Positions 8,408-34,246 of a stretch of DNA of 40,966 nucleotides are shown piece after piece. The notes beneath the pieces are model-generated. The model made no database searches. It was not told where the DNA came from and was given only the letters and a program-made list of their open reading frames with translations. Position 1 is the stretch's first letter. Each line of letters opens with the position of its first letter. Source of the DNA: Gemmatimonadota bacterium (GTDB lineage: Bacteria; Gemmatimonadota; Gemmatimonadetes; Gemmatimonadales; GWC2-71-9). The stretch covers positions 1-40,966 of the forward strand of contig QHUT01000069.1 in assembly GCA_003222055.1 (NCBI GenBank), given 5' to 3'. The position numbers were made by a program, and so were the translations under genes.

Positions 8408-8534
8408 GTCTCCCCCTGGGTCAGGGTAAGGCCGGTTGAACACTGTTCGGGATGTGGGGTTCCTTCGGATTCCTTTCGGCAACAGGGCGGCTGGTGTTGC
8501 AACGACGCGACAATCGAAGATACAACAGTCGTAG

Positions 8535-8597: not shown

Positions 8598-10121
8598 TTA
8601 GTAGCCGGCGTTCTGCGTCAAGGCCGGGTCGAGGTCCACCTCGGACTGAGGGATGGGCCACCGCATCTTGTAGGTCTGGATGGGCTGCATGACCCAGGAA
8701 TTGGGGTCGTGGTCGTGCAGGCTGTTCGCCCAGTACGATTGATCTTCCGAATCGCGACGCACCAAGTCGAACCAGCGCTTGGCCTCGTGCGCGAGCTCCA
8801 AGTCACGCTCGATGAATATCGTGTCGCGGAGCGTCAGCTTGTCGAGCGGACCGGCGTAGTCGGCGGGACTGGAGCGGTTCTCGGCCCCGGTGCCGTTGCG
8901 GGCGCGGGCGCGGATCATGTTGAGGTACGTCACGGCCGTAGCCGCGTTCCCCAGCTCGTTTTGCGCCTCCGCGTAGATCAACAGGGCCTCGGCGTAACGA
9001 TAGAGCGGGATGTCGACGTCACACTTGCCGCCGTCCGACCCGTTGTTCGTGGGACGGTATTTCCACGGCAGCGGGCCGTCTTTAAAGGACGCGACGCAGT
9101 AGCCGTCCCAGCGGCAGCCGCCGGAGCGATAGCCGGCGTCCCGGCGGTAGTCACCGGAGGCATACAGGTTGTAGTGCCATGTGGTGGGGTGCCCTGCCCC
9201 CCAGCCTCCGCCGGTTGAGAGACCGAAGTCCCGCGGAAAATAGAAGTTGACCAGCCAGCCGTTGCTGCTGCGGGAATCGAGCCCGGAAGCGGCCACGTAG
9301 AAGATCATCTCCGGATTCCCTTTGTTACTCGGCAGGAACGTGCTGATGTAGTCCGCGTTCAGTCCCCAGATCCCCGAATCGATGACCTTTTTCGCCCAGT
9401 CGGAAGCATTTTGCCACTCGGCGGTCTTCTTGAGATAGCTGGCCCGCCACAGGTACAGGTCCGCGAGCGCCATGTCCGCCGCGGCTTGCGTGGCGCGGCC
9501 GCGATCGCTCGCGCCCCACTTGGAGGGCAGTGCCGCCTCGGCTTCCGTGAGGTCCTTGACGACCTGCTGGTGCACCTGCTCGACGGGCGTCCGCGCCACG
9601 TGCAGGTTCGCGTGATCTTCGAGGGTCAAGAGCAGGGGAACGTCGTCGTACAGCTTGGTCAACCACAGGTAGGCATACGCCCGCAAGAACTTGGCTTCCG
9701 CCGTGTACCTGCTCTTGAAGGCGGGATTGTTCCACTGCTGCACGCGGTCCACGTTCGCCAGCACCAGATTGGACCGGTAGACGATGTTGTACAGCTCTCG
9801 CCACGCGACCGTCACGCCACGGCTCCCCGTCGAGTAGAAGAGGAAGTCGGGCCCGCTCGTCTCGAGGTTCGGCTCGTCATGGTCGATGCGCACCTGGTCC
9901 GACGCCAGCTCCAGCGACAGCCAGGGCCATCCGTTGAACAGATTGTTGCTGCGCATGGGCGAGTAGGCGGCCATTACGGCGCTCTTCAAGTCCGCCTCGG
10001 TCTGGAAGAACGTGTCGGTCGTGAGGAACGAGCGTGGCTCCTCCGTGAGGCTGCACGCGGCGACCACCGACAGCGCGAGCGACAGCGCGAGAGGGACGAG
10101 GGCAGGACACTTGCCGGTCAT
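8598..10121 (-). CDS. SusD/RagB family outer-membrane lipoprotein
   Basis: A 507-residue surface lipoprotein. The start is ATG 10121, preceded by AAAGGA, 17 bases after the SusC stop; a longer upstream reading frame is only a shadow of SusC. The signal ends in VVAAC (Cys23) followed by SLTEEPRSFLTTDTFFQTEAD, the usual SusD N-terminus. TPR-like helices carry KFLRAYAYLWLTKLYDDVPL (~165-185) and a YRYAEALLIYAEAQNELGN segment, and the C-terminal RagB region has EHDLELAHEAKRWFDLVRR-like residues and PIPQSEVDLDPALTQNAGY. SusD caps its SusC partner and captures oligosaccharides. Ligand specificity is unknown. Confidence 0.94.
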   Translation of the reverse strand: MTGKCPALVPLALSLALSVVAACSLTEEPRSFLTTDTFFQTEADLKSAVMAAYSPMRSNNLFNGWPWLSLELASDQVRIDHDEPNLETSGPDFLFYSTGSRGVTVAWRELYNIVYRSNLVLANVDRVQQWNNPAFKSRYTAEAKFLRAYAYLWLTKLYDDVPLLLTLEDHANLHVARTPVEQVHQQVVKDLTEAEAALPSKWGASDRGRATQAAADMALADLYLWRASYLKKTAEWQNASDWAKKVIDSGIWGLNADYISTFLPSNKGNPEMIFYVAASGLDSRSSNGWLVNFYFPRDFGLSTGGGWGAGHPTTWHYNLYASGDYRRDAGYRSGGCRWDGYCVASFKDGPLPWKYRPTNNGSDGGKCDVDIPLYRYAEALLIYAEAQNELGNAATAVTYLNMIRARARNGTGAENRSSPADYAGPLDKLTLRDTIFIERDLELAHEAKRWFDLVRRDSEDQSYWANSLHDHDPNSWVMQPIQTYKMRWPIPQSEVDLDPALTQNAGY

Positions 10122-10138: not shown

Positions 10139-13100
10139 TCAGAATGTCACGTTCACGCCGACATTCCAGACCCGCGCGCGCGGATACGCGCCGTCGTCGA
10201 CGCCGCGCACCCGCGGGTCTCCACCCATGCTGTTGACCTCGGGATCGAACCCGGTGTAGCTCGTGGCGGTCCAGGCGTTCTGACCGGTGACGTAGACACG
10301 GGCCGCCTTGGCCCCCCACACCCCGTGGATCGGGAGATCGTATCCGACGGTCACCGTCTGGAGACGCAGGAACGAGCCGTCCTCCACCTGCGCGCTGTAG
10401 ATGCGACGGGGGCGCGCGAAGTTCGCGCGCGGGACCGTCGTATTGGTATGCTGGGGCGTCCACCGGTCGAGGACGTCCGCCCGCTCGTTGAGAAAGCCGG
10501 TGGCGAGGTCGTTGAAGACGCGCGACATGTTCACGACCTGGTTGCCGTAGGAGAAATTCATGAACAGGTCCAGTGTGAACGGGCCGTACGCCAGGTTGTT
10601 CGAGAGCCCCCCGTAGAGCTTGGGGTCGGCATACCCGATGATGGTGCGGTCGTTCAGGTCGATTTTCCCGTCGCCGTTGACGTCGGCGATCTTGTACTCG
10701 CCCGGCGTGCAGTCGGCGGCGTTAGTCAGGTAGCACCGGTCGCCCACCTGCCAGAGGCCATTGGTCTTGAAGCCGTAGATCGCGCCGAGTGGCTCCCCGA
10801 CCCGCACGATGTCGGTTTGCCCGCCTTCGACAAAACCGCCGCCCCGCACGCCCGGGAAGATCTGCGTGACGCCTCCCAGGTCGAGGACCTTGTTCCGGTT
10901 ACGCGCCAGGTTGAGCGCGCTGCGCCAGCTGAAGCGCGCGCCGACGACGTTCACGCTGGTGACCGACAGCTCGACGCCGTTGTTCTGCACGGAGCCGATG
11001 TTCTGAAACTGATTGGTGAACCCCGAGGTCGCCGGCATCGGCACGCTGAGCAGCAGGTCGTGCGTCACCCCGTGATACGCGTCGAGCGTGAAGGCGACGC
11101 GGTTGCGCAGCACGCTGGCATCGACCCCCACGTCGAATTGCTGCTGCGTCTCCCACTTGAGATCCGGGTTCCCCTTCGTGCCCGAGGGACACAGGGAGTT
11201 GATCTCGGAGCCTCCGATGGAGTACCAGCAAACACCCAGTTGATAGAGCGTCCGGTACGGGTCGATCGCCTGATTGCCGGTCTTGCCGTAGCTCACCCGC
11301 AGCTTCAAGTCGCCGAACACGGACTGATGGGCCATGAACGGTTCGCTCGACACGCGCCACGCGAAGGCGGCCGATGGAAAGAACGCCCACTTGTTGTTCT
11401 TCCCAAAGCGGCTCGACCCGTCGGTGCGTCCGGTGAGCGTGAAGAGATACGCGTCGTTCAGGTCGTAGTTCGCCCTGCCCAGATACGACACGAGTGTCCA
11501 ATCCGAGGCGTTGCTGTCCGGCGGCCGCAAGGTGCGGCACGAGCCGTACGCAAAGAACATCGTAGCGTCGCTGGCGCACCCCTGGGCCCGCGCGGTCTCG
11601 CCCTCGTTGTGTGAGGTCTGCACCGAGAACCCGCCCAGCAGGTCGACGCGGCCCGGGCCCAGGGCGCGCCGGTACGTGAGGGTGTTCTCGTTGATGAGCT
11701 GCCGCGAGGGAACGGGAGACGCGGAGATGTAGCTGTCGCCGCCCGGCCCCAAGCCGGGGGCGATGGTGCGGGGCGCGTAGTACTCGGTGCCGCTGTAGCT
11801 GAAGGACCCGCCGAACGTGCTGCGCAGCTTGATGGCGTCGGTGATGGCGAGCTCGCCGACCACGTTGCCGACCATGCGCGAGATGGTGTTCAGTTGTGTC
11901 AGCTCGCTCGAATTGGCCACTGGGTTCTCCACCTGCTCACCGAGGATGGCCGACTTGGTCCAGTTACCGTTCGCGTCCTTGGGCGGGATGGAGGGGTCGA
12001 ACTGCATGGCCGCGAGGATGCCGTTGGCGCCGGCGCCGACGCTGCCGTTCTCCTCCTGCGCCACGTTCTGGCTGACCATGGCGAGGCTGAGGCTCGTGCC
12101 GACGTGAAACCGCTCGCTCACGTCGGCATCGAGGTTCAAGCGGACGCCGTAGCGCTGGAAGTCCGACCCGATGAGGATGCCGCTCTGCTTCATGTAGTTC
12201 CCGCTGAACAGATACCGCACGCGGTCGTTTCCGCCGGACAGCGTCAGTCCCTCGCTCGCCTGCGGCGCGGCGACGCACGCCGACGACGCACACGTGCGGA
12301 GCATCATGCCGGGGTAGTCATAGGACGACGCGGAAGCGATCTGCGCCGCCGTGTATGGCAGCCTGGTGGAGTCCCGCGTGGCGTTCCAGATGGCCTCGTT
12401 GCGCAACTGCCGGTACTGCGGACCATTCAGTACCGGGATCAGGTTCGAGATGCGCTGGAACCCGTAGCTCGACTCGATGGTGAAGTGGCTCTCGCCCGTG
12501 CGCCCGCGCTTGGTGGTGATCAACACGACGCCGTTGGCGCCGCGCGCCCCGTAGATCGCCTTCGCGGACGCATCCTTGAGGACGTCGATCGATTCGATCT
12601 CGTTCGGGTCGATGGACATCAGCGGATTGTTCCGAGGATCCTGCGCCGAGCTCGACGTGCCTCCCACGCCCTGTTCCGCGGGCACGCCGTCCACGACGTA
12701 GAGCGGCTCGCTGTTCGCGGTCAGCGAGTTGGTGCCGCGGATACGCACGCTGGCGCCGACCCCGGGCATCCCGGAGTTCGTGATGACCTGAACGCCCGCC
12801 GCCCGGCCCTGCAGTGCCGTGTTGACGGTCGGCGTCGGGGCCGCCTTGGTCGCCACGGCGTCGCCGCTCACCGAGGCGACCGCGCCCGTCAAGTCACGCT
12901 GCTGCACGGTGGCGTAGCCGATCGCCACGACGGCATCGAGCTGGACCGCTTGGGCCGTGAGTCGGATGTCCGCCGCGACGGACTGCCCGGCCGCGACGAC
13001 GATCGTGTCTTCCGCGCTTCCGTAGCCGATGAGTCTGGCGCGCACGTGGTAGGTGCCGGGGGGAACAGAACTGATCGCGTAGCGACCGTCCGCAGCGGTC

Positions 13101-13261
13101 AAGGCGGTGAGGCGGGTGCCGAGGACGCTCACGGCGGCACCAGCGAGGGGAGCGCCGGTTTCACGCGCCGTGACGGTGCCCACGATCGACCCCACCTCCT
13201 GGGCCGCGCCCACTTGAGCAGCGAGGACTGCGCATACGAGCAGGACACCACAGCATTTCAT
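10139..13261 (-). CDS. SusC/RagA family TonB-dependent outer-membrane transporter
   Basis: A 1040-residue receptor. Start ATG 13261 has a strong GGAGG seven bases upstream; the open frame to 13489 lacks signal-like sequence. A signal peptide (to ~20) is followed by a carboxypeptidase-regulatory-like domain (~23-100; GSIVGTVTARETGAPLAGA, PPGTYHVRARLIGYG). The plug (~110-230) contains LQGRAAGVQVITNSG, the VRIRGTNSL box, PLYVVDGVPAE and SIDVLKDASAKAIYGARG. A long beta barrel ends in aromatic Phe. No STN signalling domain is visible, although an ECF sigma gene lies just upstream. It pairs with the SusD immediately downstream for energised oligosaccharide import. Confidence 0.95.
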   Translation of the reverse strand: MKCCGVLLVCAVLAAQVGAAQEVGSIVGTVTARETGAPLAGAAVSVLGTRLTALTAADGRYAISSVPPGTYHVRARLIGYGSAEDTIVVAAGQSVAADIRLTAQAVQLDAVVAIGYATVQQRDLTGAVASVSGDAVATKAAPTPTVNTALQGRAAGVQVITNSGMPGVGASVRIRGTNSLTANSEPLYVVDGVPAEQGVGGTSSSAQDPRNNPLMSIDPNEIESIDVLKDASAKAIYGARGANGVVLITTKRGRTGESHFTIESSYGFQRISNLIPVLNGPQYRQLRNEAIWNATRDSTRLPYTAAQIASASSYDYPGMMLRTCASSACVAAPQASEGLTLSGGNDRVRYLFSGNYMKQSGILIGSDFQRYGVRLNLDADVSERFHVGTSLSLAMVSQNVAQEENGSVGAGANGILAAMQFDPSIPPKDANGNWTKSAILGEQVENPVANSSELTQLNTISRMVGNVVGELAITDAIKLRSTFGGSFSYSGTEYYAPRTIAPGLGPGGDSYISASPVPSRQLINENTLTYRRALGPGRVDLLGGFSVQTSHNEGETARAQGCASDATMFFAYGSCRTLRPPDSNASDWTLVSYLGRANYDLNDAYLFTLTGRTDGSSRFGKNNKWAFFPSAAFAWRVSSEPFMAHQSVFGDLKLRVSYGKTGNQAIDPYRTLYQLGVCWYSIGGSEINSLCPSGTKGNPDLKWETQQQFDVGVDASVLRNRVAFTLDAYHGVTHDLLLSVPMPATSGFTNQFQNIGSVQNNGVELSVTSVNVVGARFSWRSALNLARNRNKVLDLGGVTQIFPGVRGGGFVEGGQTDIVRVGEPLGAIYGFKTNGLWQVGDRCYLTNAADCTPGEYKIADVNGDGKIDLNDRTIIGYADPKLYGGLSNNLAYGPFTLDLFMNFSYGNQVVNMSRVFNDLATGFLNERADVLDRWTPQHTNTTVPRANFARPRRIYSAQVEDGSFLRLQTVTVGYDLPIHGVWGAKAARVYVTGQNAWTATSYTGFDPEVNSMGGDPRVRGVDDGAYPRARVWNVGVNVTF

Positions 13262-13594: not shown

Positions 13595-13918
13595 TCAGCG
13601 GTGCCGAATCATCGCAACGTGGAGAGCGTGCGACAGGCCGGGGGGAGCCACGAGGCGACGATGCCTCTCTGCCCCGGACCGCGCGGGAAACCCGGCCGAC
13701 CCCTGCGCCGCGTGACGGCCGCGGCTCGGCAGCAGTCGGATCCGGGCCCCCGCGACGACCCACGACCGCGTGTGGCGTCCTGTGAGGCGCCACACTTCGC
13801 GAAGGTCTTCCAACAAGGCGCCGCGCCGCGGATCGGCGGCGATCCACGCTTGCATCGCCGCCGCTTCGTCCGGGGAGCAGTCGCCCTCCACAAAACCGAG
13901 CAGGTCGGACTGTTCCAT
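13595..13918 (-). pseudogene. truncated FecR-like anti-sigma factor, N-terminal domain only
   Basis: A 107-codon ORF, 74 bases after the ECF sigma gene, with GAGG upstream of its ATG. Residues 1-47 (MEQSDLLGFVEGDCSPDEAA then WIAADPRRGALLEDLREVWRLTG) match the cytoplasmic sigma-binding domain of FecR-type anti-sigma factors, including the W-I-A-x-D-P motif. After ~residue 65 the sequence becomes Arg/Pro/Ser-rich, with no transmembrane helix and no FecR sensor domain. Neither of the other two frames on this strand continues the family. Normal FecR proteins are ~300-350 residues. It is either a decayed gene or a free, soluble anti-sigma domain. Confidence 0.55.
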
Positions 13919-13992
13919 ACCTGGACCTCAGTGCGGAGGTCCTGTCTCGAAAACCCGCAACCGCGGCCGGAGTATGACGCCGGCCTGGCGGG

Positions 13993-14583
13993 TCAGCCGA
14001 CGCGGTCCGCCGAGATCACGGGATGGGAAACGTACGGGGCGAGCTCTTCGCGCAACCGGAGCGTGGCGCGCCACATCTGCGACTTGACGGTGCCGAGCGA
14101 CACGCCCAGCCGCGTGGCGATCTCGCGGTAGCTCAACTGCTCACGGCGACGCAGCACGAAAACCGCGCGGCAGCGCGCCGGCAGGTCGGCGATGGCACGC
14201 TGCACGACGTCGTCGAGCTCGCCACACAGACACAGGTCCTCGGGCGTATCGGACCCAGGCGGCTCTTCGCGCGCCGCGCGAGCCACCCAAGCGGCGACCA
14301 CGCGACGATGCCGCAAGTACTTCAGGGCCCGATTGCGGGCCGCCACGTAGAGATAGGGCCGCGTCAGGCGCGTCGCATCCCGCGGACCGCGGCTGTCCCA
14401 GAGACGCAAGAACAAATCCTGCACCAGGTCCTGGGCGGCTTCCGCCGACCCCACGAAGCGGAGCACATACTCGCACAACTCGATGTAGTACGACCGGAAT
14501 GCCGACTCCCAGGTGGGGGGTGTCGGGGACGTCGCGCGACGCTCCGACGTTGCGAGTCGCGAATGCATCCGTGAGTCGAGCAT
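13993..14583 (-). CDS. ECF RNA polymerase sigma factor (FecI/RpoE-like)
   Basis: A 196-residue sigma-70 family protein of the extracytoplasmic-function group. Region 2 spans ~27-93, with AAQDLVQDLFLRLWDSRG and RPYLYVAARNRALKYLRHRR. Region 4 spans ~127-180, with AIADLPARCRAVFVLRRREQ and the helix-turn-helix SYREIATRLGVSLGTVKSQM. The start may be ATG 14583 or ATG 14568. It is divergent from the uronate operon and heads the FecR-like/SusC/SusD block, the usual setting for sigma factors controlling SusCD expression. Control of susC1 is inferred. A palindrome 20 bases upstream could regulate it. Confidence 0.93.
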   Translation of the reverse strand: MLDSRMHSRLATSERRATSPTPPTWESAFRSYYIELCEYVLRFVGSAEAAQDLVQDLFLRLWDSRGPRDATRLTRPYLYVAARNRALKYLRHRRVVAAWVARAAREEPPGSDTPEDLCLCGELDDVVQRAIADLPARCRAVFVLRRREQLSYREIATRLGVSLGTVKSQMWRATLRLREELAPYVSHPVISADRVG

Positions 14584-14603
14584 GTGACCCGGGTTGACAG
14601 CCT

Positions 14604-14619
14604 GTTGCGGCGGCGCAAC
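14604..14619. promoter_or_regulatory. palindrome GTTGCG-N4-CGCAAC, candidate operator, copy 1
   Basis: A perfect 6+6 palindrome with a GCGG spacer in the 127-base gap between the divergent sigma-factor and uxaB-type genes. It lies 91 bases before the uxaB-type GTG and 20 bases before the sigma ATG. A consensus-like -35 hexamer TTGACA (14594-14599, plus strand) ends five bases before it, so a bound protein could block that promoter; the matching -10 is poor. A wider inverted repeat, GTGACCCGG (14584-14592) and CCGGGTCAC (14645-14653), surrounds it. The same palindrome recurs at 30820-30835. Confidence 0.5.
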
Positions 14620-14710
14620 GGCCTCATGTTTACGCCCCTGTGCGCCGGGTCACGGGTTGCAAGTTCGAGACCGCCGTTGATCTTCACTATCACGAGGTGA
14701 CGAAACCAGA

Positions 14711-16204
14711 GTGCACGCCGCGAGCGCGCGCCTTCCTTCTATAGGTCGGGCCCACTGGCCGGAAAGCGCTTACCGCCGGGACGGGCTGCCCGAGCGCGTG
14801 CTCCAGTTCGGCACGGGCATGCTGTTGCGCGCGCTGTGCGCCGCCTCCGTGGACGCCGCCAACCGCGCCGGTGCGTTCAACGGCCGCATCGTGGTCGTCC
14901 AGAGCACGCCGCACGGCCAGGCGCGCGCGATCAACGCGCAGGACGGGTTGTTCACGCTGGTGGAACGCGGCTTGCGCGACGGAGCGCCGATCGAGCGGAC
15001 CCGTCTCATCGGCGCCGTCTCGCGCGCGCTCGTCGCCGACACGGAGTGGCCGGCGGTGCGCACGGCCGTGGCGCAACCCGAGCTGCAGGTGATCGTCAGC
15101 AACGTGACCGAAGCAGGCTTCCGACTGGAAGCGGGTTTCCCCGCCAAGCTGGCGGACGTTCTCTATACCCGCTTCGAGCGACTGCCCGACGGCCCGCCGC
15201 TCTTCGTCATCCCCACCGAGCTCGTGCCCGACAACGGACCACGTCTCGCCGCGATGGTCGATCAGCTGGCGTCGCAATGCGAAGCGCGATTTCGTGACTG
15301 GCTCGTCACCCACGTGCGGTTCTGCTCGTCGCTCGTGGACCGCATCACGACCGGCAGCCCGCCCCCCGAGGCGCGCGCCGCGCTCGAGGCGGACCTCGGC
15401 TACTCGGACGAGCTGCTCACGGTCACCGAGCCGTACGCGCTGTGGGCCATCGAAGGGGAGCCGGCTGCGTTGCGGGCGGCTTTCCCGATCGACGTCGCCC
15501 CCGGGGCGGTCGTGTTCGCATCCGACATCGGGATGTACCGGGAGCGCAAGCTGCGTCTGTTGAACGGGTCGCACACCGCGCTCGCCCCACTCGCACTGCT
15601 CGCCGGCGTCGCAACGGTGCGCGAGGTGTCGGAGCATCCCCGCCTCGGGCCCTTTCTCGAGCGCACGTTGTTCCAGGAGCTCGTGCCCGGGACCGACATG
15701 CCGGCGGCCCCGGCGCGAGCGTTCGCGGCGGGCGTGCTCGAGCGGTTTCGCAACCCCTGGCTGCGGCACGAGTGGCGCGTGATCGCCACCAACCAGACCA
15801 TGAAAATGCGGCTGCGCGTCGCGCCGCCGATCGAGCGATTCGTGCAACACGAACGGCGCGTCCCGCGGGGCCTCGCGCTCGCGTGCGCAGCGCACTTGCG
15901 ATACCTTCGCCCGGTCTCGGAGGGCGCACCGTCCGGGTCGGCCCCGCACGGCCGGTGGCGCGGAGCCACGTACCCGATCGTCGATGCCGATCTCCCGCTC
16001 GTCGCCCGGCACTGGCTGGCGGTGGACCCGGATCGCGCGTCCGGACCCGTACCCCGCGACACCCTGGAACGGCTGGCCACGCGCGCGCTCGCCGACGAGG
16101 CCGTGTGGGGCTCTTCCCTGGCCCGCCTTCCCGGGTTCCTCGAGGCAACCACCCAGGCGCTCGCGCGACTCGAGCACGAAGGCGTGGAGGCGAGTCTCGG
16201 ATGA
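14711..16204 (+). CDS. uxaB: tagaturonate/fructuronate reductase (UxaB-type)
   Basis: A 497-residue NAD-dependent polyol dehydrogenase of the mannitol dehydrogenase superfamily, GTG start. It follows UxaB more closely than UxuB: ERVLQFGTGMLLRAL (~28-42, dinucleotide site), SNVTEAGFRLEAG, PTELVPDNGPRL (UxaB has the equivalent E-L-I-x-N-G), FCSSLVDRITTG, and YRERKLRLLNGSHTALAPLA near residue 285 with the catalytic Lys region. UxaB reduces D-tagaturonate to D-altronate. However, the operon has mannonate dehydratase and no altronate dehydratase, so the enzyme may reduce D-fructuronate to D-mannonate here. It overlaps the aldolase gene by 4 bp. Confidence 0.85.
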   Translation: MHAASARLPSIGRAHWPESAYRRDGLPERVLQFGTGMLLRALCAASVDAANRAGAFNGRIVVVQSTPHGQARAINAQDGLFTLVERGLRDGAPIERTRLIGAVSRALVADTEWPAVRTAVAQPELQVIVSNVTEAGFRLEAGFPAKLADVLYTRFERLPDGPPLFVIPTELVPDNGPRLAAMVDQLASQCEARFRDWLVTHVRFCSSLVDRITTGSPPPEARAALEADLGYSDELLTVTEPYALWAIEGEPAALRAAFPIDVAPGAVVFASDIGMYRERKLRLLNGSHTALAPLALLAGVATVREVSEHPRLGPFLERTLFQELVPGTDMPAAPARAFAAGVLERFRNPWLRHEWRVIATNQTMKMRLRVAPPIERFVQHERRVPRGLALACAAHLRYLRPVSEGAPSGSAPHGRWRGATYPIVDADLPLVARHWLAVDPDRASGPVPRDTLERLATRALADEAVWGSSLARLPGFLEATTQALARLEHEGVEASLG

Positions 16205-16845
16205 TCGACGCGGCGTTCGCGAGCGGCGTGATTGCGGTGGTGCGACTCCCGGCCGGCGCGGACTTTCGCGCTCTCGCCGGCGCGCTCGCGGCTGGGGGCG
16301 TGAGCGTCGTCGAGATCACGCTGACGACGCCGGGCGCGCTCGCCGCCATCCGCGAGCTAGGTGACGCCCCGGGCTCCGTCGTCGGCGCGGGCACCGTGCT
16401 GGACGAGCGGTCCGCGCGCGAGGTCATCGCCGCGGGCGCGCGCTTCGTGGTCAGCCCGACGCTCGATCCGGCCGTCATGCGCTGCTGTCGCGAGCAGAAC
16501 GTCCCCTGCGTGCCGGGCGCGCTCACGCCGCGGGAGTTGTTGGAGGCGTCGCGCGCGGGCGCGTCTTCCATCAAGCTCTTCCCCGCCTCGCTGGTCGGGC
16601 CCCGCTACATCCGCGAAGTGCTCGCCCCGCTGCCATTTCTGCGCCTGGTGCCGTCCGGCGGTGTATCGCTCGACAACGCGCCCGACTGGATCCGCGCCGG
16701 TGCGGTCGCGGTGAGCGTGGGCGGCGCGCTGGTGAGCCCGGCGCTCGTGGCGGAGCAAGCCTGGGACCGACTCACGGCGCGCGCCCGCGCGCTGATCGAC
16801 CGCGTGGCGGAGGCCCGCCGCCAGCCCGCCGAGGCACCGGCGTGA
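16201..16845 (+). CDS. eda: KDPG/KHG aldolase
   Basis: A 214-residue class-I aldolase, start ATG overlapping the upstream stop. Key residues are visible: Glu38 in VEITLTTPGA (proton relay), Arg15 in VVRLP, and the Schiff-base Lys125 in SSIKLFPAS. GAGTVL (63-68) and PSGGV (151-155) form the phosphate loop. It cleaves 2-keto-3-deoxy-6-phosphogluconate to pyruvate and glyceraldehyde-3-phosphate. It is followed by the KDG kinase that makes its substrate, again with a GTGA overlap. Length is typical. Confidence 0.93.
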   Translation: MIDAAFASGVIAVVRLPAGADFRALAGALAAGGVSVVEITLTTPGALAAIRELGDAPGSVVGAGTVLDERSAREVIAAGARFVVSPTLDPAVMRCCREQNVPCVPGALTPRELLEASRAGASSIKLFPASLVGPRYIREVLAPLPFLRLVPSGGVSLDNAPDWIRAGAVAVSVGGALVSPALVAEQAWDRLTARARALIDRVAEARRQPAEAPA

Positions 16846-17831
16846 GCGCCGCGCCCCCCCGCGCGGTCACCTTCGGCGAGCTGATGCTGCGGCTCAGCCC
16901 GCCCGGGCAGGAGCGCCTGTTTCAGTCGCCGCAGCTCCGCACGGGCTTCGGCGGCTGCGAGGCGAATGTCGCGGTGGGGCTGGCGCACCTCGGCGTGCGT
17001 GCCGATTACATCACCCGCCTGCCCGACAGCGCCATCGGCCAGGCTGCGCTGCATGCGCTGCAAGCCGAGGGTGTGGGGACCGGATGGATCGCGCTCGCAG
17101 CGGGGAGTGAGCGCCTGGGGATCTATTTCGTCGAGCCGGGCGCCGACATCCGCTCCAGTCGCGTGATATACGACCGGGCGGGCTCGGCGTTCGCCGCCAT
17201 CACGCCGGCAATGGTGGATTGGGCCAAGGCGCTGCACGGCGCCGGGTGGTTTCACGGCTCCGGCATCACGCCCGCGCTGGGGGAAGGCCCGCGCGCGGCG
17301 CTCACCGCCGCGATCGTGGCCGCCCGCTCGAGCCGGGTGCGCATCAGCATGGATCTCAATTTCCGGCCGGCCCTATGGCAGGGCCGGGACCCCCGAGGCG
17401 TGATCGAGCCGCTCGTGCAGGGAACGGATCTCCTGATCGGTAACCGCGACGCGGTGCGGGTCATGCTCGGCGTCGAAGCGCCCGACGACTCGCTGGCGCA
17501 GCGTCTCGCCGAGCGTTACGGCTGCCGGCGCGTGGCGCTCACTCGGCGCGAGGTGCTGTCGGCGAGCGAGCACGGCTGGAGCGCCGCGCTGTACGACGCG
17601 TCGTCCGGCGGCGTCTGGCAGAGCCGGCGGTATCAGGTGCACGTGGTCGACCGGGTGGGCGGCGGCGACAGCTTTGCCGCGGCCCTGATCGCCGCGCTCG
17701 CCGCCGATCGGGATCCGGCGGACGCGGTGCAGTTCGCCGCCGCCGCCGGGGCCTTGAAGTTGACGATCCCGGGAGATTGGAACCGGGCCACGCCAGAGGA
17801 AATCGAGCAGCTGGTGCGCGCGTGCACATGA
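16842..17831 (+). CDS. kdgK: 2-keto-3-deoxygluconate kinase (PfkB family)
   Basis: A 329-residue ribokinase-family sugar kinase with a GTG start. It shows the N-terminal FGGCEANVAVGLAHLG signature, a substrate segment around YFVEPGADIRSSRVIYDRAG, the DLNFRPALW motif (171-179) typical of KDG kinases, and the C-terminal anion-hole signature DRVGGGDSFAAAL with catalytic Asp276 (the common T-x-G-A-G-D appears as R-V-G-G-G-D). It converts 2-keto-3-deoxy-D-gluconate to KDPG for the aldolase encoded just upstream. It overlaps both neighbours by 4 bp. Confidence 0.92.
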   Translation: MSAAPPRAVTFGELMLRLSPPGQERLFQSPQLRTGFGGCEANVAVGLAHLGVRADYITRLPDSAIGQAALHALQAEGVGTGWIALAAGSERLGIYFVEPGADIRSSRVIYDRAGSAFAAITPAMVDWAKALHGAGWFHGSGITPALGEGPRAALTAAIVAARSSRVRISMDLNFRPALWQGRDPRGVIEPLVQGTDLLIGNRDAVRVMLGVEAPDDSLAQRLAERYGCRRVALTRREVLSASEHGWSAALYDASSGGVWQSRRYQVHVVDRVGGGDSFAAALIAALAADRDPADAVQFAAAAGALKLTIPGDWNRATPEEIEQLVRACT

Positions 17832-18871
17832 CGTTCCGCTGGTTCGGGCGCGACGACCCGATCCCGCTGGCGCACATCCGGCACATCCCGGGCGTCTCGG
17901 GCGTCGTGAGCGCGCTGTACGATGTGCCGGTCGGCGCGGCCTGGACCCGCGAGCGGCTCGCGCGCCTCAAGGACGAGATCGAGGCGGCCGGACTGACCTT
18001 CGCCGTGGTCGAAAGCATTCCCGTCCACGAGGACATCAAGCTCGGCCGGCCGGGCCGCGACCGCCTGATCGCGAACTATTGTGAGAGCGTGCGGGTCATG
18101 GGCGCGCTCCGTATTCCGGTGCTGTGCTACAACTTCATGCCGGTGTTCGACTGGCTGCGCACCGACCTGGCCCAGCCGCTCGCCGACGGCTCGACCGCGC
18201 TGGCGTACGACGACCGCGCGCTCGCCGCCGTGGACCTGTCGCGCGGGACGGGCGATCTCCCCGGATGGGCCACGGCGTACGGCCCCGAGGAGCTGCAGCG
18301 GCTGCTCGCGGCGTACCGGGACGTGGATGCGGGGCGGTTGTGGGAGCACCTCGCCCACTTCCTCGAGCGCGTGGTCCCCGCCGCCGAGGACGCCGGCGTA
18401 CGAATGGCGATTCATCCGGACGATCCGCCCTGGGGGATCTTCGGGCTGCCCCGGATCATCTGCACGGGGGCCGATCTCGAGCGGCTGGTGGCGCTGGTGG
18501 ACAGCCCGGCGAACGGCGTGACGTTCTGCACCGGATCGCTCGGCGCCAATCCCGAGAACGATCTGCCGGCCATGGTGCGGCGGATCGGGGAACGGATTCA
18601 TTTCGCCCACTGCCGCAACGTGCGCGTCACCGGCGAGCGGCGCTTTCACGAGACGGCCCATCCGTCGGCCTGCGGTGGCGTGGATCTGTACGAAGTGCTG
18701 CGGGCGCTCTCCGACGTGGGCTTCACGGGGCCGATGCGCCCCGATCATGGGCGCATGATCTGGGGCGAGCGCGGACGCCCCGGGTACGGCCTGTACGACC
18801 GGGCGCTGGGCGCCATGTACCTCCAGGGACTGTGGGAGGGATTGACGCGAGGGAACGAGGCCGGCGCATGA
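17828..18871 (+). CDS. uxuA: D-mannonate dehydratase
   Basis: A 347-residue TIM-barrel dehydratase. UxuA hallmarks are all present: FRWFGRDDPIPL at the start, GVVSALYDVPVG, VESIPVHEDIK (62-71), CYNFMPVFDWLRTDLA (100-115), IHPDDPPWGIFG (His196), FCTGSLG (Cys234), HFAHCRNV (His261) and RPDHGRM (Asp306). The last four carry the Mn/Fe ligands, so the site looks complete. It is somewhat shorter than the E. coli enzyme (~394). It dehydrates D-mannonate to 2-keto-3-deoxygluconate, feeding the kinase and aldolase upstream. The ATG overlaps the kdgK stop. Confidence 0.95.
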   Translation: MTFRWFGRDDPIPLAHIRHIPGVSGVVSALYDVPVGAAWTRERLARLKDEIEAAGLTFAVVESIPVHEDIKLGRPGRDRLIANYCESVRVMGALRIPVLCYNFMPVFDWLRTDLAQPLADGSTALAYDDRALAAVDLSRGTGDLPGWATAYGPEELQRLLAAYRDVDAGRLWEHLAHFLERVVPAAEDAGVRMAIHPDDPPWGIFGLPRIICTGADLERLVALVDSPANGVTFCTGSLGANPENDLPAMVRRIGERIHFAHCRNVRVTGERRFHETAHPSACGGVDLYEVLRALSDVGFTGPMRPDHGRMIWGERGRPGYGLYDRALGAMYLQGLWEGLTRGNEAGA

Positions 18872-28296: not shown

Positions 28297-29282
28297 GACT
28301 CTCCACATGCACGGTCCTGGGCGCGGCCCTGCTGGTGGGCTGCAGCCGCTCCGGCTCCGACAAGGAACTGGCCATCGCCGTCATCCCCAAGGGAACGACG
28401 CACGAGTTCTGGAAGAGCATCCACGCCGGGGCGATCCAGGCGGCGCGCGAGCTCTCGGCCCAGGGAACACCGGTGCGCATCGTGTGGAAGGGACCGTTCC
28501 GCGAGGACGACCGGGAGCAGCAGGTGCAGGTGGTGGAGGGATTTCTCAGTCAGGGCATCCGCGGGATCGTGCTCGCCCCGCTCGATAACCGCGCGCTGGT
28601 GCGCCCGGTGGAAGAGGCGCAGCGGGCCGGCGTGTCCACAGTGATCATCGACTCCGGGCTCGAGTCGGACGTCCCGATCAGCTTCGTGGCGACGGACAAT
28701 CGCAAGGGCGGGCGCATGGCCGCGGACCGGCTGGGCGAGGTGCTGGGCGGTCGCGGCAAGGCCCTGCTGCTGCGCTACGCCGAAGGCTCCGCCTCGACCA
28801 CCGATCGAGAGGCCGGCTTTGTCGAAGAGCTGCACTCCCGCTATCCAGGCGTCGAGCTGGTGTCGAGCGATCAGTACGCCGGGCCGACGCGCGAGACCGC
28901 CAAGCAGGCTTCGGAAAACCTGCTCAACCGGTATGGCGCGGTGTTGCAGGGGATCTTCACGCCCAACGAATCGTCCACGATCGGCATGCTGCTCGCGTTG
29001 CAGGACATCGGCAAGGCGGGCAAGGTCCGATTCGTGGGTTTCGACGCGAGCGCCATCCTCATCGACGCGATCCGCAATCGCCAGCTCGACGGCGTCGTGG
29101 TACAGAATCCCATGCGCATGGGGTACCTGGGCGTGACGGCGATGGTCGACCATTTGCGCGGCAAGCCGGTCGAGCGCCGCATCGACACCGGGGTCATGCT
29201 GGTCACGCCGGCGAACCTGGACTCCGCGTCGACCCAGGAGCTCATCCATCCGCCGATCGCGCGCTATCTCGCCGAGCCATGA
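28293..29282 (+). CDS. sugar ABC transporter periplasmic-binding lipoprotein (RbsB-like)
   Basis: A 329-residue type I periplasmic-binding protein. The GTG start overlaps the ADH stop. Lipoprotein signal with LLVGC (Cys17). The mature part has IAVIPKGTTHEFWKSIHAGA (the ribose-binding-type ligand loop), GIRGIVLAPLDNRALVRPVE, ISFVATDNRKGGRMAADRLG, GIFTPNESSTIGML and VRFVGFDASAILIDAI. It captures a monosaccharide, perhaps L-fucose given the surrounding genes, and delivers it to the permease at 19910. The overlap with the ATPase start shows they are co-expressed. Confidence 0.93.
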   Translation: MRLSTCTVLGAALLVGCSRSGSDKELAIAVIPKGTTHEFWKSIHAGAIQAARELSAQGTPVRIVWKGPFREDDREQQVQVVEGFLSQGIRGIVLAPLDNRALVRPVEEAQRAGVSTVIIDSGLESDVPISFVATDNRKGGRMAADRLGEVLGGRGKALLLRYAEGSASTTDREAGFVEELHSRYPGVELVSSDQYAGPTRETAKQASENLLNRYGAVLQGIFTPNESSTIGMLLALQDIGKAGKVRFVGFDASAILIDAIRNRQLDGVVVQNPMRMGYLGVTAMVDHLRGKPVERRIDTGVMLVTPANLDSASTQELIHPPIARYLAEP

Positions 29283-30802
29283 GCTCGGTGCTCGAGATTC
29301 GCGACGTCGCCAAGCGATTCGGGGCGACCACGGCGTTGGACGGCGTGGATCTCGCGGTCCAGGCGGGCGAGGTGCACGCCTTGATCGGAGAAAACGGCGC
29401 GGGCAAGAGCACCCTGATGAACATCCTCGCCGGCGCCGTGCGGCCCGATCGCGGCACCATGCAGATCGACGGCCGGCCGTACGCTCCCGCCGCTCCCGGC
29501 GACGCCCGGCGGCGCGGCGTCGCCCTCATTCACCAGGAGCTGTGCCTCTGCCCCCACTTGAGCGCGGCGGAGAACATGCTGCTCGGCCTCGAGCCGGCGC
29601 GCGGGGGTTGGGTGGATCGGGGCGCGGCACGGCGGCGGGCCCTCGACCTGCTGGAGCGGTTCGGGCGTACCACACTCCACCCCGACGCCCGTGTGGCCGA
29701 CCTGCCGCTGGCGGCGCAGCAGGTGGTCGAGATCTGCCGCGCCCTGGCGGCCGACGCCCGCATTCTCCTGATGGACGAGCCGACCAGCAGCCTGCAGCGC
29801 GAGGACGTCGACCGCCTGTTCGCCCTGATCCGGCAGCTGGCCGCGCGCGGCATCGCGATCATCTACATCAGCCATTTCCTGGAAGAGGTCCGTGAGATCG
29901 CCGGTCGATACTCCGTTCTGCGGGACGGCCGCAGTGTGGACAGCGGCAGCATCGCGGGAACGAGCAACGATCAGCTGATCGCGCACATGGTCGGTCGCTC
30001 GACCCTCACCCCCTGGCTCCCTCTCCGTTCCGGAGAGAGGGAGCACCATGAGGGCAACGTGATCCTCGCGGTGCACGACGTCGCCGCACCACCGGTCTTG
30101 AAACAGGCCAGCTTCGAGCTCTCCCGCGGCGAGGTGCTCGGTATCGCCGGGCTGATGGGCTCGGGACGGAGCGAGCTGGTGCGGGCGCTGTTCGGGCTCG
30201 AGCCTCGGGCCTCGGGACGCATCGCCCTGCACGGCCGGCGACTCGCCGTGCCCGGCGCGAGTCCCGCCCGGCGTGTCGCGCAAGGGTTGGGTTACCTGAG
30301 TGAGGACCGCAGACGGGAGGGCCTCGCCCTCGCACTGTCGGTCGCGGACAACCTCACCGCGACCCGTTTTTCCGCGTGTTCGCCGGGTTGGGGATGGCTC
30401 GATCTCGATCGCCAGCGGGTGACGGCGCGGGGGTGGATCGACGCCCTGCACATCAGGGCGGCGGCGCCGGCTCAGCTGGTGCGGGCGCTCTCGGGCGGGA
30501 ATCAACAGAAGGTGGCAATCGGCCGGCTGCTGCATCAGAACGCGGAGGTCCTCTTGCTCGACGAGCCGACGCGAGGCATCGACGTCGGCAGCCGGGCGCA
30601 GATCTACGAGGCGATCGCGCGCTGTGCGGCACAAGGCAAGGCGGTGCTCATGGTGAGCTCCTATCTGCCGGAGCTGTTCGGGCTGTGCGACCGGCTGGCG
30701 GTGATGAGTCGCGGGCGGCTCTCCCCCGCGCGCCCGATCGAGCAGTGGACGCCGGAGACGGTGCTGACCACGGCGATCGGCGGGGCACGCGAGGAGGTCT
30801 AG
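29279..30802 (+). CDS. sugar ABC transporter ATP-binding protein, two ABC domains (RbsA-like)
   Basis: A 507-residue double ATPase. Domain 1: Walker A GENGAGKST (~38-45), Q-loop HQELCLCPHL, Walker B ILLMDEPTSS, switch ISHFLEEV. Domain 2: degenerate Walker A GLMGSGRSEL, signature LSGGNQQKVAIGRLL, Walker B VLLLDEPTRG and MVSSYLPELF in place of the switch His; this asymmetry is normal for the RbsA/XylG family. The linker between domains (WLPLRSGEREHHEG) is encoded by a CTCCCTCTCC/GGAGAGAGGGAG palindrome insertion. It powers import with the binding protein encoded upstream and the distant permease. It is the last gene of this run. Confidence 0.94.
   Translation: MSSVLEIRDVAKRFGATTALDGVDLAVQAGEVHALIGENGAGKSTLMNILAGAVRPDRGTMQIDGRPYAPAAPGDARRRGVALIHQELCLCPHLSAAENMLLGLEPARGGWVDRGAARRRALDLLERFGRTTLHPDARVADLPLAAQQVVEICRALAADARILLMDEPTSSLQREDVDRLFALIRQLAARGIAIIYISHFLEEVREIAGRYSVLRDGRSVDSGSIAGTSNDQLIAHMVGRSTLTPWLPLRSGEREHHEGNVILAVHDVAAPPVLKQASFELSRGEVLGIAGLMGSGRSELVRALFGLEPRASGRIALHGRRLAVPGASPARRVAQGLGYLSEDRRREGLALALSVADNLTATRFSACSPGWGWLDLDRQRVTARGWIDALHIRAAAPAQLVRALSGGNQQKVAIGRLLHQNAEVLLLDEPTRGIDVGSRAQIYEAIARCAAQGKAVLMVSSYLPELFGLCDRLAVMSRGRLSPARPIEQWTPETVLTTAIGGAREEV
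30017..30043. repeat. palindrome insertion between the two ABC domains
   Basis: CTCCCTCTCC (30017-30026) pairs with GGAGAGAGGGAG (30032-30043), with one bulge, across a short GTTCC loop, and is preceded by CTCACCCCCTGG. It is translated in frame within the interdomain linker, a tolerant position. The look is that of an intergenic hairpin repeat placed inside a gene. Confidence 0.6.
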
Positions 30803-30819
30803 CCCCCCACCCCCACCCC

Positions 30820-30835
30820 GTTGCGTGTTCGCAAC
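30820..30835. promoter_or_regulatory. palindrome GTTGCG-N4-CGCAAC, candidate operator, copy 2
   Basis: Same 6+6 palindrome as at 14604-14619, here with a TGTT spacer, in the 96-base gap between the ABC ATPase and the second SusC gene, 63 bases before the SusC ATG. Flanks are C-rich (CCCCCCACCCCCACCCC). Alternatively it is a weak terminator for the ATPase transcript, but no T-run follows. Confidence 0.5.
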
Positions 30836-30898
30836 ATGTCAGTCCCCCCTCTCCCTCAAGGGTTTCTGTGTGAGACTCATACCGCCCGGGAGAGCCGC

Positions 30899-33800
30899 AT
30901 GCGCGCCATCGCTCGCCGCGTTTCACTGTTTCTAACAACGCTCCTCGCTCTCGTCGCAATCGCCGGGCGGTCCGCCGCCGCGCAGGCTGACGGGTCCGGC
31001 GAGGGCTCGATCCGAGGAAGAGTCGTCTCGAGAGTCGACGAGCGTCCCATCCCCGACGCCCACGTGTTCGTGGCGGGGACCAGCCGATCGGCTACCACCA
31101 ATCAGAGCGGTGAATACGTTGTCTCCGACGTACCCGCGGGCACGTACCAAGTGCGGGCCCGGCTGATCGGCTACGGCGAGCGGAGCGACACTGTCACGGT
31201 GACTGCGGGAGCCGTCGCGACCGCGGACTTCTCGCTCGAGGCGAAGGCGCTGCTGCTCGACGTCAAGGCGGTCACCGCGCTGGGTATCGAGCAGTCAAAG
31301 CGCGTGACGCCGTACGCCATCAGTGGAGTCGCCGACACAGAGCTGACGAAGGCCAGCGCACCCACCGTGCAATCGGCGCTGTACGGCGAGGTGCCAGGCC
31401 TCAAGATCCAGCAGAACAGCTCCGGCCCCACCGGCGGCACGAACTTGACGATCCGCGGCATCAAGTCGATGACCGGCAACAACCGGCCCTTGATCGTGGT
31501 GGACGGCATCCCGATCCGGGACGATAACTCGGGCTACAGCGACGTGGGGTGGGTGTACGATCGAGACCTCGGCTCGGGCATCAACGACATCAACCCGAAC
31601 GACGTCGCGTCGGTGAGCGTCCTGAAGGGAGCGGGCTCGGCGGCGTTGTACGGCTCCCAGGCGGCGAACGGCGTCGTCCTGATCACCACCAAGCAGGGTA
31701 CGAAACGCGACGGCCTCGGCATGGACTTCAGCTCGTCGTCGCTGTTCGACAACGTCGCGTTCCTGCCCCAATTCCAGAACGAGTACGGGGCCGGGATTCT
31801 CGATCTGATCTTGCAGCACCGGCCGAACAACGGCGAGTTCATCTACGACTCGACGACCAAGACGCCGTACGTGGCGTACGGTGGCGGGATAGGCGCGGCG
31901 CACAGCTGGGGTCCGCCGATGCGCGGACAGATGGTGATGTGGTGGGACGGGCAGATGCGCCCGTTCTCACCCCAGCCGGATAATTTCCGCGACCTCTATC
32001 AGGCGGGTCGGACGCTCGAGAACACGGTGACATTCTCGAACGCCACCGATCGCAGTCGCTATCGCATCGGGTTCACACGGAACGACTGGACCGGCACCTT
32101 CCCCGGCGCGCGGCAGGTGCGGAACACCGTGAGCCTCACGAGTGACCTGCAACTGTCCGATCGGCTCAGGGCGAACCTGACACTCAACTACTATGACAAG
32201 ACGCTCACGAACCCGCCCCCCCGGGTGTACGATGCCTACTCCTTCCCCCGATCGCTCAAGGCGGATCTGCTGAGGCAGGACTACCGGACGCCCGACGGCT
32301 ATCTCGCAACGCAACAGATCTACCCGCGGCTTCACTCCAGCGAAGCCACCATGATGCAGCAGATCTTCTGGACGGGGCTCCAGGACCAGTACGAATCGGC
32401 GCAGGATCGGTTGGTGGGCTCGCTCAGGCTGAACTACGCGCTGTCCGACTGGCTGAGCCTGCGGCTGCAGGGAGGAACCGATTACACCGACAACACCATC
32501 CAGAACAAGCAGCGAACCACGCAGCCGGCGAGCGTGGGACCGTCGGGCGGCTACAACGTGAAGCGGCTGCAAGATCGTGTGCTCTACGGCGACGTGTTGC
32601 TGAGCGCGCAACGCACCCTGACGCCGTCGCTCGGCCTCAACCTCCAGGTCGGCGCCGCGACCACACGGAACCGTACCGGCGAGACGGCAGCATGGACCAA
32701 CGGCGGCCTCGTGACCGAGAACTGGTTCAGCGTCAACAACTCGGCGAGCACTCCGGGCCAGTCTGCTGGGCGCGGCGAAGACCGTACCGACGGCGTATTC
32801 GGCCAGGCGGTGTTGTCCTATCGCGACTATCTGTACTTGACCGCGACGGGACGCAACGACTGGACGTCGACGCTTCCGCCGGGAAGCAACTCGTACTTCT
32901 ACCCGTCCGTCGGTGCGAGCTTCGTATTCAGCGATGCGGTCCGACTCCCCCGGCAGATCTCATCGGGGAAGTTCCGCGTGAACTACGCGGAGGTGGGTCG
33001 GGGCGCCCCGCGCTATCTGGCCAACAATGTCTACAGCTTCGCCACCTGGGACGGCGGCGTCTTGCTGAACGCCTTTTCCGACACCGTCCCACCGCTCGCC
33101 TTGAAGCCCGAGCGCAAGTACGAAGCGGAGGTCGGACTGGAGATGGGGTTCTTCGACGAGCGCTGGCACGTCGACGGCTCCTTCTACCATCAACGGAACG
33201 TCGATCAGATCATCCCGCTGGCGATCGCCGCCAGCTCCGGTGCGACGCACATCGTCGTCAACGCGGGCCTGATGACGAACACCGGGCAGGAGCTGCAGCT
33301 CTCCGGCTGGCCCATTCGGCGCGGCGACTTCGAGTGGAGCACCACATTCAACTTCGCGCGGAATCGAAACGAGGTCCGGAGTCTCGCCGCCGGCCTGGGG
33401 TCGCTCGGGCTTGCCAGCTTCGAGGACAACCTGTTCGTCGTGGCGCGGCCCGGCCATCCGTTCGGCGAGATCTATGGCTACGACTTCCGGCGCTCACCGG
33501 ACGGCCAGAAGATCGTGGATGACAGCGGCTTTTACGCGAAGAGCACCACGCAGAGCCTGGTCGGCAACATCATGCCGAGCTGGCTCGGCGGGTTCAACAA
33601 CACGCTCCGCTACAAGGGCGTCTCGCTCTCCCTGCTGTTCGACGTCCGGATGGGCGGCCAGTTCGTGAGCATGTCGGACTACTATGCCCTCGCCACCGGG
33701 AGGGCGATGGAAACGCTGTTCGGGAGGGACCAAGCGCACGGCGGATTACCGTACTACATCGACGGCACCAACTACGTCCGGCTGCCAAGCCACGACGCCC

Positions 33801-34237
33801 TCGCGCCGAACGGGTCACGCGTATATCACGATGGGATCATCCTCCCCGGCGTCAAGGAGGTGCGTGACGCGAATGGCAACATCATCGGCTACGCGCCGAA
33901 CGACAAGGTGGTCCCATTGTGGGACTACTACGAGACCAACTTCAACTGGAAGGAACAGGGCATCTACACGCAGGTCGTGTACGACAACAATTACATCAAG
34001 TTGCGTGAGCTGACGCTCAGCTTCGACCTGCCCGCGGCGTGGACGCGACACGTCCCCGCTCGGAATCTCCGGCTGTCGCTCATCGGACGGAACCTGTTCT
34101 ACCTCTACAAGACCGTCCCCAATGTGGATCCCGAGTCGGCCACCTCTACGGTGGACGCTCGTCAGGGGCTGAACGACTACATCGGGTACCACCCGACGAC
34201 GCGGAGCCTCGGCTTCAAGATCACGGGCTCGTTCTGA
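30899..34237 (+). CDS. second SusC/RagA family TonB-dependent transporter
   Basis: A 1112-residue receptor. ATG 30899 begins a typical signal peptide (RRVSLFLTTLLALVAIAG, cleavage near AAA-Q); an upstream in-frame GTG would add 26 unlikely residues. The carboxypeptidase-like domain spans ~35-115 (GSIRGRVVSRVDERPIPDA, VPAGTYQVRARLIGYG). The plug has LYGEVPGLKIQQNSSG, NLTIRGIKSM, PLIVVDGIPI and VSVLKGAGSAALYGSQAANG; here ALG replaces the more usual VGYG before the plug. The beta barrel runs to the terminal Phe of LGFKITGSF. It belongs to the subfamily that pairs with SusD-like_2 proteins, as encoded next. It imports an oligosaccharide, possibly fucose/uronate-containing. Confidence 0.95.
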   Translation: MRAIARRVSLFLTTLLALVAIAGRSAAAQADGSGEGSIRGRVVSRVDERPIPDAHVFVAGTSRSATTNQSGEYVVSDVPAGTYQVRARLIGYGERSDTVTVTAGAVATADFSLEAKALLLDVKAVTALGIEQSKRVTPYAISGVADTELTKASAPTVQSALYGEVPGLKIQQNSSGPTGGTNLTIRGIKSMTGNNRPLIVVDGIPIRDDNSGYSDVGWVYDRDLGSGINDINPNDVASVSVLKGAGSAALYGSQAANGVVLITTKQGTKRDGLGMDFSSSSLFDNVAFLPQFQNEYGAGILDLILQHRPNNGEFIYDSTTKTPYVAYGGGIGAAHSWGPPMRGQMVMWWDGQMRPFSPQPDNFRDLYQAGRTLENTVTFSNATDRSRYRIGFTRNDWTGTFPGARQVRNTVSLTSDLQLSDRLRANLTLNYYDKTLTNPPPRVYDAYSFPRSLKADLLRQDYRTPDGYLATQQIYPRLHSSEATMMQQIFWTGLQDQYESAQDRLVGSLRLNYALSDWLSLRLQGGTDYTDNTIQNKQRTTQPASVGPSGGYNVKRLQDRVLYGDVLLSAQRTLTPSLGLNLQVGAATTRNRTGETAAWTNGGLVTENWFSVNNSASTPGQSAGRGEDRTDGVFGQAVLSYRDYLYLTATGRNDWTSTLPPGSNSYFYPSVGASFVFSDAVRLPRQISSGKFRVNYAEVGRGAPRYLANNVYSFATWDGGVLLNAFSDTVPPLALKPERKYEAEVGLEMGFFDERWHVDGSFYHQRNVDQIIPLAIAASSGATHIVVNAGLMTNTGQELQLSGWPIRRGDFEWSTTFNFARNRNEVRSLAAGLGSLGLASFEDNLFVVARPGHPFGEIYGYDFRRSPDGQKIVDDSGFYAKSTTQSLVGNIMPSWLGGFNNTLRYKGVSLSLLFDVRMGGQFVSMSDYYALATGRAMETLFGRDQAHGGLPYYIDGTNYVRLPSHDALAPNGSRVYHDGIILPGVKEVRDANGNIIGYAPNDKVVPLWDYYETNFNWKEQGIYTQVVYDNNYIKLRELTLSFDLPAAWTRHVPARNLRLSLIGRNLFYLYKTVPNVDPESATSTVDARQGLNDYIGYHPTTRSLGFKITGSF

Positions 34238-34246
34238 GAGGATGAC

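Follow-up and report, generated by a model that had tools for sequence, protein, structure and literature searches.

Do two identical perfect palindromes, each lying before a glycan operon of a Gemmatimonadota bacterium from soil, mark the binding sites of a common regulator? We examined this question in a stretch of 40,966 nucleotides, hereafter the window, and in the genome to which it belongs (G000; 3.69 Mb, 173 contigs). A search of the full window returned exact GTTGCG-N4-CGCAAC at 14604-14619 and 30820-30835 only, and the two copies have identical arms and different spacers (GCGG and TGTT), as the initial annotation had described. Copy 1 lies 91 bp before the GTG (14711) of a uxuB-like gene and copy 2 lies 63 bp before the ATG (30899) of a SusC gene, in agreement with the 60-95 bases before an operon start reported originally. 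Moreover, a divergent ECF sigma factor gene that had gone unmentioned has its ATG (14583) only 20 bp away from copy 1 (Table 1). The annotated genes of the window include no one-component regulator, a point on which the initial reading was also right. The TTGACA sequence before copy 1, previously taken as a −35-like box, is not conserved and reads GTGACG or similar in the sister species G005 and G009.

Table 1. Coordinates of the palindromes and of the genes around them in the window.
Feature	Coordinates	Strand	Evidence or remark
Weak third candidate, TGTTGCA-ACGA-CGCGACA	8495..8512	.	2 mismatches; intergenic; 88 bp upstream of the 7904-8407 (−) TonB-plug ORF
SusD-like lipoprotein of the ECF cluster	8598..10121	−	Pfam SusD_RagB
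SusC-like TonB-dependent receptor of the ECF cluster	10139..13213	−	Pfam Plug, CarboxypepD_reg
FecR-like anti-sigma gene remnant	13679..13921	−	tblastn; 81 aa matched of 342 in G009
ECF-type sigma factor, first gene of the divergent sigma/FecR/SusC/SusD cluster	13993..14583	−	Pfam Sigma70_r2, r4
Palindrome copy 1, full 18-bp form TGTTGCG-GCGG-CGCAACG	14603..14620	.	Kept in G005 (spacer ACGT) and G009 (spacer GCAC)
UxuB-like mannonate/fructuronate oxidoreductase (mannitol dehydrogenase family), first uronate-operon gene	14711..16204	+	GTG start; start region conserved in G005 and G009
KDPG aldolase	16201..16845	+	
PfkB sugar kinase (KDG kinase-like)	16842..17831	+	
UxuA mannonate dehydratase	17828..18871	+	
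Sugar ABC transporter ATPase	29279..30802	+	Ends 17 bp before copy 2
Palindrome copy 2, full 18-bp form CGTTGCG-TGTT-CGCAACA	30819..30836	.	Kept in G009 (= AG20, QHUU01000018.1), spacer TCTG
SusC-like receptor downstream of copy 2	30899..34237	+	G009 orthologue has the same site
SusD-like lipoprotein	34283..35806	+	
Gluconate 2-dehydrogenase subunit 3-like protein	35817..36422	+	
GMC oxidoreductase	36419..38122	+	

In Bacteroidota, polysaccharide-utilisation loci have the gene order ECF sigma, FecR, SusC, SusD. The same order is found beside copy 1; here, however, FecR is truncated and a conserved palindrome stands before the sigma gene. The weak third candidate is not significant alone, because 4.5 sites with 2 of the 12 arm bases mismatched are expected by chance per window. 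The 167-aa ORF beyond it, downstream of SusD, carries a TonB plug domain only and resembles a fragment of a TonB-dependent receptor. At the other end of the window, a protein with a heparinase II/III-like C-terminal domain (38130-40052) follows the GMC gene and suggests an acidic-polysaccharide locus.

The repetition of the pattern had been presented as an event expected well under once by chance, which is true only for a pattern named beforehand. The window holds 23 perfect 6-4-6 palindromes against 23.8 expected and has three different ones in duplicate; a repeated one is present in 49 of 100 dinucleotide shuffles, so that the chance argument from the window alone fails. The significance of the motif rests instead on other genomes. 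The whole of G000 contains 4 exact sites (three of them intergenic, two of these in the window) against 2 for a reversed control pattern. We searched the pattern in 60 relatives and retrieved 40 stretches around matches, and the gene context given below comes from these genome searches and stretches. Genes were called with a home-made codon model trained on the Pfam-supported genes of the window; individual calls may therefore be wrong, but no one call decides how the sites compare with the control. Far from the random spread, mostly inside genes, that would have spoken against the original proposal, 25 of the 30 exact sites of the genus are intergenic, against none of the 8 control matches examined in the genus, all of which lie in genes (Fisher p=3e-5). 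In other genera of the family, an intergenic position is found for 43 of the 51 sites examined. Taken together, the gaps are divergent (32), tandem (32) or, in 2 cases, convergent. Outside the 12 bases searched, about 90% of half-sites have a pyrimidine on the left and a purine on the right; since these flanks were not part of the search, the motif is best written YGTTGCG-N4-CGCAACR. In 102 family genomes this 18-mer gives 74 sites, against 21 for its reversed control. The motif is thus real and linked to promoters, and it is very probably functional in the family; on sequence grounds, both palindromes of the window appear to be members of a genuine predicted operator motif used across it. A literature search for the motif string found only a paper on NnrR (PMC1274295) and, as far as the literature searched shows, this promoter palindrome of the family was previously unreported.

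Conservation at both operons supports a function for the two copies of the window. Both sister species have an exact copy 1 in front of their uxuB orthologues, and near-copies occur in G001 (1 mismatch) and G004 (2 mismatches), but G006 keeps the uxuB orthologue and has lost the palindrome. In G001, the uronate and ECF-sigma genes are on different contigs, with an exact site at the ECF-sigma/FecR/SusC locus and a near-exact one at uxuB. Because these unlinked loci each keep a copy, the element in the divergent gap of the window is to be assigned to the genes on both of its sides. The ECF sigma orthologues of G001, G005 and G009, all with the site, are 65-88% identical to that of the window. 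In G009, copy 2 persists with a diverged left flank and a conserved right one. In two more distant MAGs (AG49 and AG12), a gene aligning with the gluconate dehydrogenase subunit directly follows the ABC ATPase, and both SusC/D and the site are absent; the copy 2 site therefore travels with the SusC/D promoter. The window sites can accordingly be regarded as conserved, promoter-linked elements before both operons. Two further observations concern these regions. In G000 and G009, the SusC/SusD pair (30803-35806) forms an insertion that separates the sugar ABC ATPase from the gluconate-dehydrogenase/GMC genes. Downstream of copy 1, at 14640-14700, CGGTCACRGGTTGCAAGTTCGAGACCGCCGTTGATCTTC is nearly invariant in G000, G005 and G009, exceeds the conservation of the surrounding gap and has no Rfam match.

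Which genes does the motif accompany elsewhere? Across the genus and family, the genes adjoining sites encode polysaccharide functions (bacterial sugar transferases, Wzy_C, Wzz, Polysacc_synt and an XrtA-system polysaccharide deacetylase), surface and signalling proteins (Big_2 and PKD proteins, MASE1-GGDEF and other GGDEF proteins, histidine kinases and response regulators), and also DUF4402 proteins, TonB/SusC receptors, PQQ dehydrogenase and UxuB. Orthologous targets recur in different genera at the DUF4402, PKD/sugar transferase, Wzy_C/Big_2 and MASE1-GGDEF loci. A regulon specific to uronate, fucose and Sus genes, as first envisaged, was therefore abandoned: the targets are broader, being mainly exopolysaccharide, adhesin, c-di-GMP, two-component and TonB/SusC genes. 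Before the DUF4402 genes of two species (loci L053 and L059), a second perfect inverted repeat, GAGGCGC-AC-GCGCCTC, lies beside the palindrome.

In other genera, the palindrome is coupled to sigma-54 promoters. At the highest threshold, 19 strong −24/−12 promoters lie within 200 bp of it, against 0.9 expected, the promoter being downstream at a distance of mostly 25-120 bp. A motif-blind dyad scan in these genera returned the same −24/−12 element as its top dyads (GGC-N8-TGC and TGG-N9-TGC). The rpoN gene (PF04552) is present in G000 and in 91 of the 102 family genomes. The palindrome-promoter distances (31, 41, 51, 61...) hint to the eye at helical phasing, but once periods had been scanned this was not significant (p=0.24). 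In the genus of the window, strong sigma-54 promoters near exact sites are not enriched (3 against 0.9 expected), and the dyad scan found none, nor any other convincing second element. At the window copies themselves, no −24/−12 promoter is recognisable, the best scores being 13.4 (26 bp) and 11.8; the GG-N10-GC of the 13.4-scoring candidate is found in G000 only and is absent in G005 and G009. A sigma-54 promoter upstream of uxuB (CGGTCACRGGTTGCA) was rejected, the GG-GC gap being 9 and not 10 in both sister species. On the ECF side, copy 1 is too close to the start codon for an upstream activator site.

We then looked for the protein that could read the motif. NtrC-type response regulators are the most recurrent regulator genes beside sites, and a PrsR/AtoC-like subgroup of them occurs as several orthologue types. 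Upstream of these PrsR-like genes, palindromes resembling TGTTGC-N6-GCAACA (at most 2 mismatches) are found in 23 of 29 and 14 of 18 cases, against 1.6 and 1.1 expected. G000 has two such paralogues (C77:15035-16519 and C35:1708-3207), both with intact Walker A and GAFTGA motifs, and the NtrC-type architecture is present: receiver (PF00072), sigma-54 AAA+ domain (PF00158) and Fis-type HTH (PF02954). The C77 regulator gene belongs to an exopolysaccharide cluster, in which a Wzc-like kinase gene diverges from it and genes for a histidine kinase and a sugar transferase come after it; upstream of it lies CGCTGCGACCTCGCGACA and, 3 bp on, TGGCCCGAACCCTGC. In the genus of the window, the autoregulatory sites have imperfect halves (TGCTGCG/TGTCGCG) and are not GTTGCG-N4-CGCAAC. 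The cluster (locus L276, G000:C77:6001-26000) contains several sigma-54 promoters with imperfect palindrome copies 20-90 bp upstream. Exact sites occur in 23 of 31 genomes with a b/c-type regulator and in 17 of 71 others, a difference whose p=3e-6 is confounded by kinship (p=0.017 at genus level); of the latter 17, 10 have no detected regulator and 7 an a-type only. We do not call these regulators PrsR, because their TIGR02915 scores (380.7, 366.5 and 377.1 bits) are under the cut-off of 502.6. A histidine kinase adjoins the regulator, and TIGR02916 (PrsK) is not among the best 25 families listed for that kinase.

These observations lead us to infer that a PrsR-like regulator is the candidate binding protein. 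A dimeric DNA-binding protein would bind YGTTGCG-N4-CGCAACR, the half-sites being one helical turn apart. Across the family, this protein would be a PrsR/AtoC-like NtrC-type response regulator, encoded in exopolysaccharide clusters with its partner histidine kinase, and we consider that such an activator is probably the main binder. It would use the palindrome as an upstream activator sequence for the sigma-54 polymerase at a promoter mostly 25-120 bp downstream, and thereby activate exopolysaccharide, adhesin and signalling genes as well as its own gene. As the best explanation of the whole data set, a family operator that a PrsR-like sigma-54 activator uses as its upstream activator site seems to us evenly poised between right and wrong. 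Binding of the same activator to the window copies is possible, though slightly doubtful. There, the regulator may act otherwise, either by working at a sigma-70 or ECF promoter or by repressing from a position close to the promoter; alternatively, the palindrome may be used by a second protein. That one protein would bind both copies is plausible.

The kind of circuit proposed has a described counterpart. In the PEP-CTERM/exosortase system, an activator motif of 17 nt ending in TTTACA (motif 1) precedes a −24/−12 promoter by 32-92 nt (mean 63) and was found in Proteobacteria only (Haft et al. 2006, PMC1569441). The family motif resembles this PrsK/PrsR-sigma-54 element in the comparable spacing of activator site and promoter in other genera, in the NtrC-type response regulator and partner kinase of exopolysaccharide loci, and in the exported or surface-protein targets with sites almost never inside genes; one family site even precedes the XrtA-system deacetylase. 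However, the site here is a palindrome and not the 17-nt motif, the phylum differs, the regulators score below the TIGR02915 cut-off, and the regulon reaches SusC/D and, in the window, uronate genes that have no visible sigma-54 promoter. For these genes, VpsR-type homologues of enhancer-binding proteins, which control polysaccharide genes independently of sigma-54 (discussed in PMC3162934), offer the precedent of NtrC-family control that the window copies would need. By analogy, the regulators described here may act in this way, but unlike the VpsR type they keep an intact GAFTGA and therefore look sigma-54-competent.

Alternatively, in the genus of the window, the palindrome could be the operator of a different, sigma-54-independent factor, a one-component regulator of glycan uptake and catabolism encoded elsewhere, with a likeness to the site of other genera that is convergent or derived from a duplicated site family. 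The missing −24/−12 promoter at either copy, the lack of enrichment in the genus, the 20-63 bp distances to start codons, which resemble those of repressor or class II activator sites, and genus targets such as SusC, UxuB and PQQ dehydrogenase genes all fit this explanation. We nevertheless find it rather unlikely: exopolysaccharide and c-di-GMP loci (PKD/sugar transferase, MASE1-GGDEF, Wzy_C, DUF4402) are also among the targets in the genus and are orthologous to those of other genera, which suggests one shared regulator, and genes for transcription factors of other families do not recur beside sites. A regulator of the CRP/FNR family is another candidate. The consensus published for NnrR of Alphaproteobacteria is TTGCG-N4-CGCAA (ctTTGcgnnnncgCAAag, PMC1274295), with the same half-sites and spacing, and CRP/FNR proteins are present in the genus. 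However, the base flanking this core is G here rather than T. The recognition helices found, SRETVSR (the E. coli CRP pattern, which predicts TGTGA) and SRQTTNR, do not predict T3/C6 by the rule given in that paper, and each helix type is undetected in some site-bearing genomes. Moreover, the CRP/FNR genes have no exact site closer than 1.5 kb, no denitrification genes (nir, nor, nos) were seen beside the sites examined, and NnrR boxes differ in this respect and in the sigma-54 coupling found elsewhere in the family. The spacing is thus compatible and the helices are not, making a CRP/FNR binder improbable.

The palindrome might also act as RNA, a terminator or leader hairpin and no protein operator, given that a G+C-rich stem of 6-7 bp with a 4-base loop can form and that copy 2 begins 17 bp after the stop codon of the ABC ATPase. 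The orientation pattern is wrong for such an element, with 2 convergent gaps against 32 divergent ones, and palindromes sit beside divergent genes; no T-run follows either copy, the spacers do not form a conserved family of loops and no Rfam family matches, so that a hairpin is scarcely credible. Finally, both window copies could be functionless coincidences even if the motif works elsewhere, as the frequency of repeats in shuffled windows, the loss at the G006 uxuB and the small excess over the control in G000 might suggest. This we hold to be very improbable, since the arms are unchanged while the spacers differ in the sister species, the unlinked ECF operon and uxuB of G001 each keep a copy, and the genus sites are predominantly intergenic. 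The boldest extension of the proposal, that in the genus a PrsR-like exopolysaccharide regulator of the NtrC family extended its site from sigma-54 promoters of surface-polysaccharide genes to the sigma-54-independent promoters of the SusC/D and uronate operons, is in our view unlikely. If true, one circuit would couple matrix making with the eating of acidic glycans via two kinds of promoter.

Our best reading is that the motif is new and the kind of circuit, a PrsR-like sigma-54 enhancer-binding protein, already known. In the literature searched, we found no published regulatory motif for Gemmatimonadota, a large and mostly uncultured soil phylum. The present motif is specific enough for regulon prediction from sequence, and it points to a definite candidate regulator. 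PrsR-type control of exopolysaccharide genes through sigma-54 would extend to Gemmatimonadota, with a different site, and the wiring of glycan-uptake and uronate operons into the same circuit becomes testable.
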